Below, piece after piece: positions 11,230-16,589 of a DNA stretch of 64,000 nucleotides. Both the position numbers and the translations under genes were made by a program. The stretch is from Bacillales bacterium (lineage in GTDB: Bacteria > Bacillota > Bacilli > Bacillales > DASSOY01): contig DASSOY010000029.1 in NCBI GenBank assembly GCA_035700025.1, positions 1 to 64,000 on the forward strand, read 5' to 3'. The number at the start of each line of letters is the position of its first letter. Position 1 is the first letter of the stretch. The notes beneath the pieces are model-generated. The model made no database searches. It was given only the letters and a program-made list of their open reading frames with translations, and was not told the DNA's origin.

Positions 11230-12129
11230 TTATTCACTCCTTCGTTTGTAAGGAATTCGAATGGCAGGTTCGAATCGACTCTTTCCTTCTTTCAACAATT
11301 CCCGGTAAACGTCCAAATTTCGGTCTTCGAGATGATCGAAAGTCATCGGCGCACGAGACCCTTTCGTGATGTACTTCAACGGGTCTGAATCGAGTTCGGC
11401 TGAAATGATTTCTTCAGTGCCTCTCGCTTGTGCCAATTTCCATGCGGTTGGATCGACAATCATGCTGTGACCGAAGTAGTATGCGCCGCCGGCATCCGGA
11501 CCGACTGCATTCGTGCCAATCATATACACATGGTTGTCATACGCTCGTGCACGTGTCGTTAAATCCCATATGTCGAAACTGCGCATTAACGCTGAAGGCC
11601 TAACGATCACTTCGGCACCGTTTAAAGCAAGCAGCCTGGCCAGTTCGGGGAAATCACCGTCATAACAGATGATCATGCCGATGTTACCGAGTTCCGTTTC
11701 GTATACGCACGCCGTACTCCCTGCTTCAGCCCAACCGCCTCCAGCTCTTCTTTCAGATGGAAAAGGATGCGTTTTGTGGTAAACTCCGACAATTTCACCT
11801 TTCGCATCAATGAGAAGGCTGCTGTTGTAAACAAATCCTCTCTTTGGGCCTCTCGTGTACGTCGGCCAGACGACGTGAACAGATAATTCCCTTGCCGCTT
11901 CCCGAATCGGTTTCGTTTGTTCACCGTCAACTTCGTCTATGAGATCGTAAAGTTGCTCGGGCGAAAGGTTTGGGTTGAATCCGGTCGTGATTGTTTCAGG
12001 AAAAACGACAAGATCCGCTTTATGTTCTGCAACGGCACGCTCTAACCACTTCAATGCCTTATTGATGTTGGACGTCACCTGATTCGGCTCGACAGCGATT
12101 TGAACGGCAGCGGCGACAAAATTTTTCAT
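11230..12129 (-). CDS. nitrilase-superfamily carbon-nitrogen hydrolase
   Basis: 299 residues. The Glu-Lys-Cys catalytic triad is visible at Glu45 (VVFPE), Lys119 (YHKTHPF) and Cys155 (IICYDGDFPE). The fold is the single-domain nitrilase superfamily, closest in appearance to N-carbamoyl amino acid hydrolases and aliphatic amidases; the exact amide is unknown. The start has an AAAGGAGG site and the AtoE-type carrier follows at once, so the pair probably handles uptake or disposal of an amide-linked acid. The divergent lar operon begins about 275 bases upstream of its start. Confidence 0.88.
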   Translation of the reverse strand: MKNFVAAAVQIAVEPNQVTSNINKALKWLERAVAEHKADLVVFPETITTGFNPNLSPEQLYDLIDEVDGEQTKPIREAARELSVHVVWPTYTRGPKRGFVYNSSLLIDAKGEIVGVYHKTHPFPSERRAGGGWAEAGSTACVYETELGNIGMIICYDGDFPELARLLALNGAEVIVRPSALMRSFDIWDLTTRARAYDNHVYMIGTNAVGPDAGGAYYFGHSMIVDPTAWKLAQARGTEEIISAELDSDPLKYITKGSRAPMTFDHLEDRNLDVYRELLKEGKSRFEPAIRIPYKRRSE

Positions 12130-12342: not shown

Positions 12343-12404
12343 AAAAACAAATGTAAAAATAAGAATGCTCAATCGATTTTGTGGATATATATGGGGGCTT
12401 TCGC

Positions 12405-13211
12405 ATGTTGGAACAAAAATATGAGAAACTACAAGCAATCCTCCGAGAAATGGGAAGCGTCGTTGTTGCTTTTTCCGGCGGGGTTGACAGTACCTTTTTA
12501 TTAAAGGCGGCGCTTGACGAACTCGGAACCGATCATGTCCTCGCAGTGACCGCAGATTCGGAAACGTATCCATCAAGTGAGCTGATAGAAGCGAAGAAGA
12601 TTGCCTCGGAACTCAACGCCCCGCATTTGGTCATTGAAACATCGGAGCTTGCCATTCCCGGTTACGTGGAAAATAATAGAAACCGTTGTTATTTTTGTAA
12701 AAAAGGATTATTTGAAGAGTTGCTGCCGATCATGGAAGATCGCGGCTTTCACAATCTTGTATTTGGCTTGATTGCTGACGATATGAGTGATTATCGCCCA
12801 GGGGTGAAAGCGGCCAAGGAATACGGGGTTCGCGGCCCGCTGCAAGAAGCGGAACTCTATAAGCAAGAAATTCGTGAGTTGTCGAAACGCTTCGGACTTT
12901 CGACTTGGGACAAACCATCTTTTGCGTGTCTTTCTTCCCGGATTGCGTATGGCGAGGAAGTGACAAGAGAAAAACTAACGAAGGTTGAGAAATCGGAGCA
13001 ATTCATTCGATCGCTTGGGATTCGCCAGCTGAGGGTGCGAACGCACGGGGAAACGGCAAGAATTGAAGTAGAGCCGGAGGAGATGGCGATCGTACTGGAC
13101 AATCATGCAATGATAGCGGAACGCTTGAAAACGTATGGATATCAGTATGTCACACTTGATCTCGTCGGCTATAAAAGCGGCAGCATGAACCAAATGCTCA
13201 CAAAACAATAA
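12405..13211 (+). CDS. larE: LarE, sulfur transferase for nickel-pincer cofactor synthesis
   Basis: 268 residues from ATG 12405, seven bases after GGGGG. An in-frame GTG at 12381 has no ribosome binding site. The PP-loop ATP-binding motif AFSGGVDSTFLLKAA is at residues 22-36. Cys175 in KPSFACLSSR corresponds to the sacrificial cysteine of Lactiplantibacillus LarE. In addition Cys95 and Cys98 form a CYFC pair in NRCYFCKKG, so three cysteines are present; LarE proteins with such a triad have been described as [4Fe-4S] enzymes. LarE installs the two sulfurs of the pyridinium dithiocarboxylate cofactor of lactate racemase and related LarA enzymes. No larA lies in this window. Confidence 0.93.
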   Translation: MLEQKYEKLQAILREMGSVVVAFSGGVDSTFLLKAALDELGTDHVLAVTADSETYPSSELIEAKKIASELNAPHLVIETSELAIPGYVENNRNRCYFCKKGLFEELLPIMEDRGFHNLVFGLIADDMSDYRPGVKAAKEYGVRGPLQEAELYKQEIRELSKRFGLSTWDKPSFACLSSRIAYGEEVTREKLTKVEKSEQFIRSLGIRQLRVRTHGETARIEVEPEEMAIVLDNHAMIAERLKTYGYQYVTLDLVGYKSGSMNQMLTKQ

Positions 13212-13222
13212 GGGGATTCTTT

Positions 13223-14008
13223 ATGAAGCATAGCAAGAAATCGATCGAGCAAGTGTTACAAGAAGTAAAAGCTGGCGAGATGTCCATTGATGAAGCGAAA
13301 GAGCGACTCAAGCCTTATGATCATTTATCATTTGCGAAACTCGATGTGAATCGTGAAGCGCGGACAGGATTTCCTGAAGTCATATATGGCGAAGGGAAAA
13401 CCGCGGCACAGCTCATTGAAATTATTGAACATATCAAAGAAAAATTACCAGTTGTGCTCGCCACGAGAGTGGATGTTGAAAAAGCAAAACAAGTGATGCC
13501 GCGGATCGACGGCCTTCAGTATAACGAAACCGCCCGTACACTGCTCTGGAAAAAAGAAGCGGCAGCAGCAGTCGATACCGATGGTTATATTGCAGTTGTA
13601 TGTGCAGGTACGTCGGATTTGCCGGTTGCAGAAGAAGCGGCGGTAACGGCGGAGGCGTTTGGATGCCGGGTCGAACGGATCAATGATGTCGGCGTGGCCG
13701 GACTGCAGCGGTTGCTCGATTGTCTTGAGGTCATTCGCGGTGCAACGATTGTCGTTTGCGCGGCCGGTATGGAAGGGGCGCTGACGAGTGTGTTGGCTGG
13801 ACTCATCCATAATCCAATTATCGCTGTGCCGACAAGCGTCGGTTACGGAGCCAATTTTGGCGGATTATCTGCGTTGCTGTCAATGTTAAATACATGTGCA
13901 CCAGGCGTGAGTGTTGTTAACATTGACAACGGTTTCGGCGCCGGATACCATGCGGCTCAATTGTATCGCTTAATAAACGGAGGAAACCATGAACATCCTG
14001 TACTTTGA
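13223..14008 (+). CDS. larB: LarB, NaAD carboxylase/hydrolase for nickel-pincer cofactor
   Basis: 261 residues. An N-terminal helical region (SIEQVLQEVKAGEMSIDEA) precedes a conserved FAKLDVNREARTGFPEVIYG segment. The C-terminal PurE-like domain starts near residue 128 with IAVVCAGTSDLPVAEEAAV and continues through GGLSALLSMLNTCAPGV. LarB carboxylates and hydrolyses nicotinic acid adenine dinucleotide in the first cofactor step. It begins 11 bases after larE, and its last 20 bases overlap larC1, indicating tight coupling. Confidence 0.94.
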   Translation: MKHSKKSIEQVLQEVKAGEMSIDEAKERLKPYDHLSFAKLDVNREARTGFPEVIYGEGKTAAQLIEIIEHIKEKLPVVLATRVDVEKAKQVMPRIDGLQYNETARTLLWKKEAAAAVDTDGYIAVVCAGTSDLPVAEEAAVTAEAFGCRVERINDVGVAGLQRLLDCLEVIRGATIVVCAAGMEGALTSVLAGLIHNPIIAVPTSVGYGANFGGLSALLSMLNTCAPGVSVVNIDNGFGAGYHAAQLYRLINGGNHEHPVL

Positions 14009-14723
14009 TTGCTTTTCAGGCATCAGCGGCGACATGACGGTTGGCGCGCTCGTCGATGCCGGGGCAGATCCCGAATCTATTGAAAAAGCTTTGAAATCTT
14101 TGCGTTTCTCATCCGAATACCGATTGCATTGGGAAAAGGTCGTGAAAAAAGGAATTACCGCGACAAAATTCATCGTGGAGAGTGAAAAAGAGCCGCACGG
14201 ACACCGGCATCTCGATACGATTATCAAGATGATCGATCAGGCGGAACTGACCGATTTTGTAAAAACAACCGCTTTACGGATTTTTAAAATCATCGGCAAG
14301 GCGGAGGCAGGTATTCACGGCATTCCTTTGAAAAAAGTACATTTTCACGAAGTTGGCGCCGTTGATTCGATTATTGATGTTGTTGCAACGGCATTAGCCA
14401 TTGAGCAGTTGAATCCTGAGCGAATTGTTAGTTCGGCTGTCGCTGTCGGAAACGGCACGATCCACATCGATCACGGCATTTACCCGGTCCCCGCTCCGGC
14501 AACAATCGATATTTTGAAAGGCATTCCTTTGAAATCGAGTGACATTCAAGGGGAAATGACGACGCCGACTGGGGCGGGCATTATCGCTGCCCTCGCCCAA
14601 TCGATTGGTCCGATTCCGGACATGCAAGTAGAGAGAATCGGTTACGGGGCAGGAACGAAAGATTGGCCGAACCAGCCGAACGTCCTGCGTGTCATGACAG
14701 GAGTTGCGCCACATGCCGGGTAA
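13989..14723 (+). CDS. larC1: LarC N-terminal part (larC1), nickel insertion protein
   Basis: 244 residues, ATG after GGAGG and inside the end of larB. It is the N-terminal portion of the CTP-dependent nickel insertase: YFDCFSGISGDMTVGALVD at the start, then HFHEVGAVDSIIDVVATALA and PTGAGIIAALA. The frame stops at TAA 14721-14723, while the C-terminal part continues in the +1 frame from an overlapping start. The frames share 14698-14720, where GGG sits directly before the TAA, so a +1 slip (GGG to GGT) would give one polypeptide of about 395 residues. In Lactiplantibacillus larC is likewise split into larC1/larC2 and joined by ribosomal frameshifting. Confidence 0.92.
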   Translation: MNILYFDCFSGISGDMTVGALVDAGADPESIEKALKSLRFSSEYRLHWEKVVKKGITATKFIVESEKEPHGHRHLDTIIKMIDQAELTDFVKTTALRIFKIIGKAEAGIHGIPLKKVHFHEVGAVDSIIDVVATALAIEQLNPERIVSSAVAVGNGTIHIDHGIYPVPAPATIDILKGIPLKSSDIQGEMTTPTGAGIIAALAQSIGPIPDMQVERIGYGAGTKDWPNQPNVLRVMTGVAPHAG

Positions 14724-15165
14724 CCGCGAACATGTCGATGAAAACATGGTGAAAATGGAAGTGAATCTGGATGACATGCCGGGAGAATGGCTCGGACATG
14801 TTATGGATCTATTGTTTGACGCCGGAGCGAACGATGTATTTTACATCCCGATTTATATGAAAAAAAACCGCCCCGGGGTCATGCTGCAACTTTTATGTCA
14901 TCAGGAAGACTTGGAACGGATGGAACGTATTCTTTTTACGGAGACGACGACGCTTGGGATCCGTTATGTTCCGACGACAGTTCACCGTTTGGAAAGACGG
15001 TTCTATAAAGTCAATACCGAATGGGGAGAAGTGACCGTTAAAGAGGGCAGGTTGAAAGGCAAAGTTGTTCAACGCTCTCCGGAGTTTGAAGACTGCCGGG
15101 CAATCGCCGAAAAACACGGTGTTCCTTTGAAGTACGTATATCATGCCGTATGGAAACGGCTTTAA
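14713..15165 (+). CDS. larC2: LarC C-terminal part (larC2)
   Basis: 150 residues if translated from ATG 14713, which has AGGAG nine bases upstream; a TTG at 14704 abuts that site and is unlikely. The frame is +1 relative to larC1 and open from 14698. The sequence carries the conserved continuation of LarC: KMEVNLDDMPGEWLGHVMD, FDAGANDVFYIPIYMKKNRP, ETTTLGIRY and a closing PEFEDCRAIAEKHGVPLKYVY. It may be made alone, as a frameshift fusion with larC1, or both. A terminator follows directly. Confidence 0.9.
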   Translation: MPGNREHVDENMVKMEVNLDDMPGEWLGHVMDLLFDAGANDVFYIPIYMKKNRPGVMLQLLCHQEDLERMERILFTETTTLGIRYVPTTVHRLERRFYKVNTEWGEVTVKEGRLKGKVVQRSPEFEDCRAIAEKHGVPLKYVYHAVWKRL

Positions 15166-16191: not shown

Positions 16192-16223
16192 AAAAAAACC
16201 CTTGCCCGTTCGCGGGCAAAGGT
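16192..16223 (-). terminator. intrinsic terminator of the Mn2+ riboswitch expression platform
   Basis: On the minus strand CCTTTGCCCG (16222-16213), tetraloop CGAA, CGGGCAAGGG (16208-16199), then seven U (16198-16192). Upstream, GGGGCAAAGG (about 16248-16239) can pair with the first arm as an antiterminator. The same segment can instead pair with the 3' arm of aptamer helix P1. Confidence 0.85.
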
Positions 16224-16270
16224 CGCCTATCTAAAAAAACCTTTGCCCCTGCATGCGATTTGCGCAGAAG

Positions 16271-16372
16271 TCAAAGGTCTCGCTAAACATGAAGTCTACA
16301 AAGCCGGGGCGAAACGCCCGAAATGACGACTTTGTACCACCCTGGATTGGCGTGGCAGCTACTCCCCTTTGA
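16271..16372 (-). promoter_or_regulatory. yybP-ykoY (manganese) riboswitch aptamer
   Basis: Read on the minus strand, the element starts with AAAGGGGAGTAGCTGCCACG and ends with GCGAGACCTTTG, the two conserved ends of this Mn2+-sensing RNA. CAAAGG at the 5' end pairs with CCTTTG at the 3' end as helix P1. It lies about 205 bases upstream of a TerC-family start and is followed by an antiterminator/terminator pair. Mn2+ stabilising P1 would free the antiterminator and switch the exporter on, the logic known for this class. Confidence 0.95.
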
Positions 16373-16472
16373 TTTAAAAAGTGAACCGTTTCATTCTTAG
16401 AATCCATTATCGCAAAAGTTTGCGAGAAAATCCACTCATACGCTTTACGGAAGGTTAAAGACGTATGACCTA

Positions 16473-16510
16473 GAAAATCCGCATTGCCAAAGCTAGCAAT
16501 GCGGATTTTC
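16473..16510 (-). terminator. terminator hairpin after the Rap-like gene and micro-ORF
   Basis: GAAAATCCGCATTGC and its exact complement form a 15-bp stem with an 8-base loop; on the minus strand it ends in ATTTTC. It begins seven bases after the stop of the 11-codon ORF. Confidence 0.7.
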
Positions 16511-16517
16511 CAATCTT

Positions 16518-16553
16518 CTAATCACGAATGCCGTCATGGTCCGACTTTGTCAA
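16518..16553 (-). CDS. possible 11-residue peptide downstream of the Rap-like gene
   Basis: A TTG-initiated ORF encoding MTKSDHDGIRD. It has a near-perfect AAAGGAGGT ribosome binding site (16561-16567 region) seven bases upstream, 36 bases after the Rap-like stop, and is followed at once by the terminator hairpin. Rap genes are normally followed by phr genes encoding secreted pre-peptides of about 40 residues. No such ORF is present here, and this peptide has no signal sequence. It may be a minimal cognate peptide, a leader peptide or chance. Confidence 0.35.
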   Translation of the reverse strand: MTKSDHDGIRD

Positions 16554-16589
16554 TTAGGTGACCTCCTTTCAAAAACGCAGTTCACCGCA

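Follow-up and report, generated by a model that had tools for sequence, protein, structure and literature searches.

The locus lies in a 64-kb window, the whole stretch of DNA analysed (64,000 nt). A rap-like receptor gene is followed there by an 11-codon frame (micro-ORF), a hairpin and a riboswitch. The features, all on the minus strand, are listed below.

17690-16590, minus strand: rap-like receptor gene, 366 aa, RapH_N and TPR, intact (Pfam, RapF match, AlphaFold model)
16592-16590, minus strand: stop codon TAA of the rap-like gene (sequence)
16570-16561, minus strand: Shine-Dalgarno (SD) site GAAAGGAGGT (sequence and duplex energy with a generic anti-SD)
16554-16556, minus strand: in-frame TAA immediately 5' of the TTG (sequence)
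16518-16553, minus strand: micro-ORF, TTG to TAG, encoding the pheromone-like MTKSDHDGIRD without a signal sequence (sequence and Phr likeness)
16473-16510, minus strand: hairpin with 15-bp perfect arms and an 8-nt loop, probable terminator of rap and the micro-ORF
16218-16379, minus strand: Mn2+ riboswitch (yybP-ykoY) of the next gene (Rfam RF00080, 50.2 bits)

The core ribosome site AAAGGAGGT (16569-16561, minus strand) begins 20 nt past the rap stop, and the longer form GAAAGGAGGT makes ten contiguous pairs with the generic anti-SD, with a duplex energy of −17.9 kcal/mol. An earlier note on this DNA had rightly called the site strong; its placement directly after the rap stop was wrong, as 20 nt intervene. 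The micro-ORF starts with TTG at 16553, 7 nt past AAAGGAGGT, runs for ten further codons and stops at TAG (16520-16518), with the hairpin 7 nt further on, all as previously described and confirmed in the sequence. Because a TAA abuts the TTG, an upstream extension of the frame is excluded. A scan of the interval from rap to the hairpin found no ORF of at least 20 codons with a hydrophobic leader (sequences judged by eye), which bears out the reported absence of a normal phr. The micro-ORF lies outside the usual definition of a Phr precursor, an ORF of 35-120 aa with a secretion signal that overlaps rap or stands directly behind it. The locus does show the layout of leaderless-peptide genes: an ultrasmall ORF with a strong ribosome site and no leader, adjoining a TPR receptor gene. 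With SD, spacing, start and stop in order, the short ORF is apparently built for translation, as had been proposed, and what it encodes seems to be just the message of a normally secreted Phr, the export tag being absent. A point against translation is the weak TTG start.

Five sites in the window, both strands counted, combine an SD match of 8 nt with a well-spaced start, while 60 first-order Markov copies averaged 1.27 and reached at most 5. The frames behind the other four sites have 61, 223, 276 and 299 codons (the last being the ORF that starts at 12129), so that the micro-ORF is the sole 11-codon frame in the set. For the 76-nt gap between the rap stop and the hairpin, 0.00075 such sites are expected.

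The hairpin (arms 16510-16496 and 16487-16473) folds strongly, with a z-score of −5.8 for a 136-nt stretch. It contains only four T residues, placed inside its 3' arm, for which reason the terminator scan did not flag it. The hairpin, taken for a terminator earlier, remains the probable terminator of rap and the micro-ORF. Between the micro-ORF and the next gene, of the TerC/YjbE family, sits the Mn2+ riboswitch. Since that gene has its own riboswitch after the hairpin, a role of the micro-ORF as its leader was rejected, and with it the transcription-coupled leader suggested before, as applied to the downstream gene. In the 136-nt fold the 3' end of rap can pair with the SD. This pairing is unstable in a 75-nt fold and shifts with the chosen borders; SD sequestration by the rap 3' end was therefore dropped and is not claimed.

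The neighbour described as Rap-like proved to have a true full-length Rap fold. Pfam RapH_N matched at 28.0 bits, just above the cut-off of 27, and a sequence search against solved structures gave a RapF match with an E-value of 6.4e-22. The solved relatives ranked by sequence were RapF, Rap3T, RapI, RapH, Rap105, the pLS20 Rap (6t3h), RapJ and NprR. An AlphaFold model built from 35 sequences had a mean pLDDT of 94.1; its best VIA match was peptide-bound RapJ-PhrC (4gyo_A, Z 34.9, 348 residues, 3.3 Å), and Foldseek ranked RapI, RapF and RapJ first.

Residues that hold the peptide in known Raps are partly retained. RapF Asn227, which is RNPP-wide and holds the peptide backbone, corresponds to N209, and RapF Asp194 to D176, both kept. 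Mutation of either residue in RapF abolished PhrF binding (PMC3601957). In an alignment of 25 locus rows, from which the misaligned L010 and L014 had been dropped, the Asn227 equivalent was Asn in 24. The remaining six of the eight RapF anchors are changed in the window Rap: Tyr66, Tyr152, Gln183, Arg223, Gln263 and Asp338 (now Glu). These anchors are also mostly missing from the 25 rows (Tyr66 in 0, Gln183 in 0, Arg223 in 5, Gln263 in 5, Asp338 in 7, Tyr152 in 12), so the clade departs from RapF at these positions anyway. The RapJ mutant Y150F, at the equivalent of RapF Tyr152, lost its response to PhrC, and E147, F250 and K300 mutants were likewise without a PhrC response in vivo (PMC3601965). 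The window Rap differs at the equivalents of all four RapJ residues, of which E147, F250 and K300 are RapF positions 149, 252 and 303. The changed RapF anchors and RapJ positions are points against the micro-ORF peptide as a ligand of this Rap. At Gln47, the catalytic residue of Spo0F phosphatases, Glu is aligned in the window Rap and in two paralogs of the same genome and Asp in a third; 6 of the 25 rows have Gln there, in a gapped stretch with another Gln two residues on.

A leader-bearing phr was present in 85 of the 106 other rap loci examined, absence meaning that none was detected by a hydrophobicity scan. The first survey gave a signal-peptide Phr precursor in 47 of 54 loci after hand correction of 50 automatic calls (L042, L043 and L050 dropped, the L086 frame replaced). 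Its exceptions were L042 (contig C39 of the same genome), L043 (contig C49 of the same genome, with a broken rap), L048, L050, L082, L091 and L092. The second survey, made via RapH_N, started from 75 places, of which 70 were taken as loci and 52 scored, the exclusions being eight duplicates of the first survey, a Rap-winged-helix fusion (L113) and nine loci without a usable long ORF. There, 38 of 52 loci had a leader-bearing phr and 14 had none, after hand correction of 43 automatic calls (L121, L125, L134, L136 and L155 dropped).

None of the 106 loci had a strong SD (7 nt) heading an ORF of fewer than 30 codons in place of phr. Two did carry a 7-nt SD with a start and such an ORF within 170 nt, incidentally, at the SD of the normal phr. 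L042 and L048 are also leaderless, but their short ORFs fail the 7-nt SD test; the 27-aa non-hydrophobic ORF of L048, which stands behind AAGGAGG, was tried as a Phr-like candidate and was not significant (123 of 500 shuffles).

Tandem pheromone repeats occurred in many precursors of the first survey, among them HDGIIKP, HDGIIKD, HDRVPDS, DNSPGIKS and EHGEIRD. Repeat numbers in relatives from the order reached 10 in L085 (HGEVF), 9 in L089 (SDNSPGIKS), L009 (HDGIIKP) and L023 (HDGIIKD), and 6 in L079 (VDNSPGIK). Up to six copies were reported in one survey (PMC9765709).

The micro-ORF peptide resembles such pheromones. MTKSDHDGIRD is similar to EHGEIRD, the pheromone segment of the leader-bearing Phr at L036, L086 and L099, and further likenesses were seen to EHGVIRD (L027), to the HDGIIKD and HDGIIKP repeats (L023, L009) and to SDHDRVPD (L020). 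In the same genome, the third repeat of the Phr on contig C35, MTKSVDHEFG, also resembles it. When the peptide was scored locally against 44 unique Phr tails, 15 of 2000 composition-keeping shuffles and 1 of 1500 random C-termini from the window matched or beat its mean; as the tails include close relatives, this mean is not built of independent items, and the shuffle test was designed post hoc, after the likeness had been noticed. The best single score was weaker (126 of 2000 shuffles, 6%; 9 of 1500 random C-termini). As judged from these scores, the pheromone likeness appears good as a trend across the family and modest in each individual match. His occupies the presumed position 2 of the peptide, as in the EHG-type precursors of the surveyed loci; Phr peptides of B. 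subtilis carry Arg or Lys there (PMC3601957, PMC3601965). The earlier suggestion of a leaderless cytosolic regulator gains from this likeness to leader-bearing Phr pheromones, that of a paralog in the same genome included, while its action in the cytosol is something we infer.

A scan of 397 genomes of the order for the motif [D/E]H[..]xIRD plus stop returned 15 sites, the window included. Two of the 14 sites outside the window were Phr C-termini behind rap (G008 and G053, of the same genus), and the backwards control gave six sites. Because the motif was drafted after the G053 Phr was known, the scan is circular and was discarded as evidence. Beyond the window, the genome contains no exact HDGIRD; its four one-mismatch sites were not Phr-like by eye.

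Outside its own genome, no relative of the window Rap above about 33% identity was found in 101 genomes of relatives, 397 of the order and 398 of the class, nor in genome_contigs and viral_contigs. These searches were samples and pattern-seeded scans; the genome itself was within each genome set, and the two 400-genome searches scored no more than five candidates from any one genome. Plasmid matches ranged from 24.5 to 27.3%. At the DNA level, the stretch from rap to the hairpin matched itself, and everything else had E-values of 0.5 or worse.

Counting fragments and the window rap, ten rap matches lie in the genome (2.84 Mb, 90 contigs), and its paralogs are the four best matches to the window Rap besides itself. 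Behind the rap of contig C39, MIKRRGDDNVIA is read from an ATG that overlaps the rap stop; after its own stop codon comes what looks by eye like a hairpin with a run of T. The start of this ORF, MIKR, is also that of the full Phr of contig C85 (MIKRLLLS...), which suggests leader loss at C39. The C39 peptide is not Phr-like (score reached by 1912 of 2000 shuffles), and the C39 Rap lacks, by eye, about 45 residues of its N-terminal bundle. Since the peptide fails the shuffle test, C39 is held as a candidate second case only; its sequence suggests leader loss within this genome, yet decay too. On contig C49 (L043), the pair is decaying: its rap contains an internal stop and its phr frame is broken.

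Several described systems resemble the locus in part. It shares with Rap-Phr pairs such as RapF-PhrF and RapJ-PhrC the Rap fold, the phr position behind rap in the same direction, a pheromone-like C-terminus and the retained RNPP Asn and RapF Asp. It differs from them by having no Sec signal peptide, 11 codons, a TTG start, its own SD 20 nt past the rap stop, and His instead of Arg or Lys at the presumed position 2. The leaderless class of SIP/RopB likewise has an ultrasmall ORF with a strong ribosome site beside a TPR receptor and little beyond the ligand (PMC10518010); here, in contrast, the receptor is a Rap and not of the Rgg/RopB clan, the peptide is charged and its gene is co-directional with the receptor. 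As the receptor of that class is of the Rgg/RopB clan and ours is not, the locus was classed as a Rap-Phr variant and not as a member of the leaderless class. For ComS/ComR of Streptococcus mutans, the peptide can act inside its producer without processing, export or import, but its receptor, ComR, is of the Rgg type and activates comX, and no Rap takes part (PMC6211226). The orphan raps RapB, RapD and RapJ of B. subtilis likewise have no normal phr behind them (PMC9765709), whereas here a translated-looking, pheromone-like ORF remains.

Our tentative preference, held at somewhat less than even confidence, is that the micro-ORF descends from a phr whose signal peptide was lost, is still translated and would make a cytosolic ligand of the Rap. 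The observed ORF anatomy, Rap fold, absent leader and likeness to Phr pheromones carry this explanation. The Sec signal peptide of an ancestral Phr precursor, together with any repeat units, would have disappeared, so that MTKS plus DHDGIRD remained behind its own strong ribosome site. Translated together with rap or just after it, the peptide would probably be trimmed N-terminally to about DHDGIRD, and might then bind the neighbouring Rap in its TPR pocket within the producer cell, with no export or re-import, and inhibit it. Control of the Rap would be cell-autonomous, depending on the peptide/Rap ratio and on peptide turnover and not on cell density. One precedent is a mature Phr made within B. 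subtilis cells, which works in the absence of Opp. Points against this explanation are the C39 peptide with its shortened Rap, which suggest decay in the gene family, and that no close orthologue was found in the sets searched.

Almost as good an explanation is a dead relic, a possible though doubtful outcome in which the signal peptide was deleted, the pheromone codons are drifting and the Rap is an orphan or hears another Phr. Other raps of the genome are decaying (the C49 rap with its internal stop and broken phr, the C39 rap shortened at its N-terminus), raps without a leader-bearing phr are common, as the second survey showed, and orphan raps have been described (PMC9765709, PMC5199041). 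The window Rap, however, is intact at 366 aa, and the SD is one of five SD and start combinations of this strength in the window, with start, spacing and stop all in order.

It is unlikely that the product is a strict leaderless communication peptide, one that leaves the cell by a non-Sec route or through lysis, is taken up again and serves between cells, as in SIP/RopB. For RopB-type receptors, leaderless peptides of generally 8-10 aa have been described (PMC13361665); such peptides have been validated in several species, candidates of the RopB clan extend to Bacillaceae, and some of these have charged residues or may undergo peptidase trimming (PMC10518010). The published class was sought only among RopB/Rgg homologues, divergent genes and aromatic or aliphatic peptides being preferred (PMC10518010), unlike the charged, co-directional micro-ORF peptide beside a Rap. 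Similarly improbable is a translated but peptide-independent function, with the ribosome shielding the 3' end of rap or tuning termination at the hairpin. The 7 nt between micro-ORF stop and hairpin would suit it, as would the possible fold between the rap 3' end and the SD; that fold, however, varies with the borders chosen, and the likeness to Phr pheromones is not predicted. An untranslated SD-like stretch next to a short frame by chance is very improbable: 11 codons are short and one genome has them, but the expectation for the gap is far below one site and the peptide resembles Phr.

If the micro-ORF does encode a cytosolic ligand of its Rap, it would be the first case of a Rap whose cognate pheromone is made in the cytosol, from 11 codons, forming a cell-autonomous, self-inhibited switch out of an export-import quorum-sensing pair, and with C39 this would have arisen twice in the lineage; we regard this broader claim as possible though doubtful. 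Leaderless peptides act on RopB-clan receptors (PMC10518010), and no leaderless Phr of a Rap was recognised among the papers that the literature searches listed. One published phr search required 35-120 aa and a signal sequence (PMC5199041), and another began from RopB homologues and ATG starts (PMC10518010). The 'loose' level of RRNPP_Detector takes peptides of 10-100 aa without a secretion tag and could in principle have listed such a locus (PMC10075063). If true, the cytosolic-ligand explanation would bring Raps, beside the Rgg/RopB clan, among the receptors of leaderless communication peptides and give the streptococcal peptides a Rap counterpart. Whether Phr is a cell-cell signal or an internal timer working through an export-import loop is an old question, which could be tested directly on a natural pair that lacks the loop.

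Further rap variants were seen in the same genome. Contig C44 encodes a 440-aa Rap paralog (L039:2518-3840, plus strand) with RapH_N, TPR and a C-terminal Trans_reg_C winged helix (39.8 bits, cut-off 26.2). In this fusion the Rap carries an OmpR-type DNA-binding domain, and does so at the other end from the HTH of NprR. On contig C85, two tandem phr lie behind one rap (L040:2470-2935, plus strand), ending in SNNVDGGIR and SNNVDGGVR (the second read by eye). Elsewhere in the window, positions 12381-15165 (plus strand) hold genes that we take to resemble larE, larB and larC. The larC-like gene is broken into two ORFs that overlap (13989-14723 and 14704-15165) and correspond to successive stretches of Ni_insertion, which fits the known frameshift of LarC.
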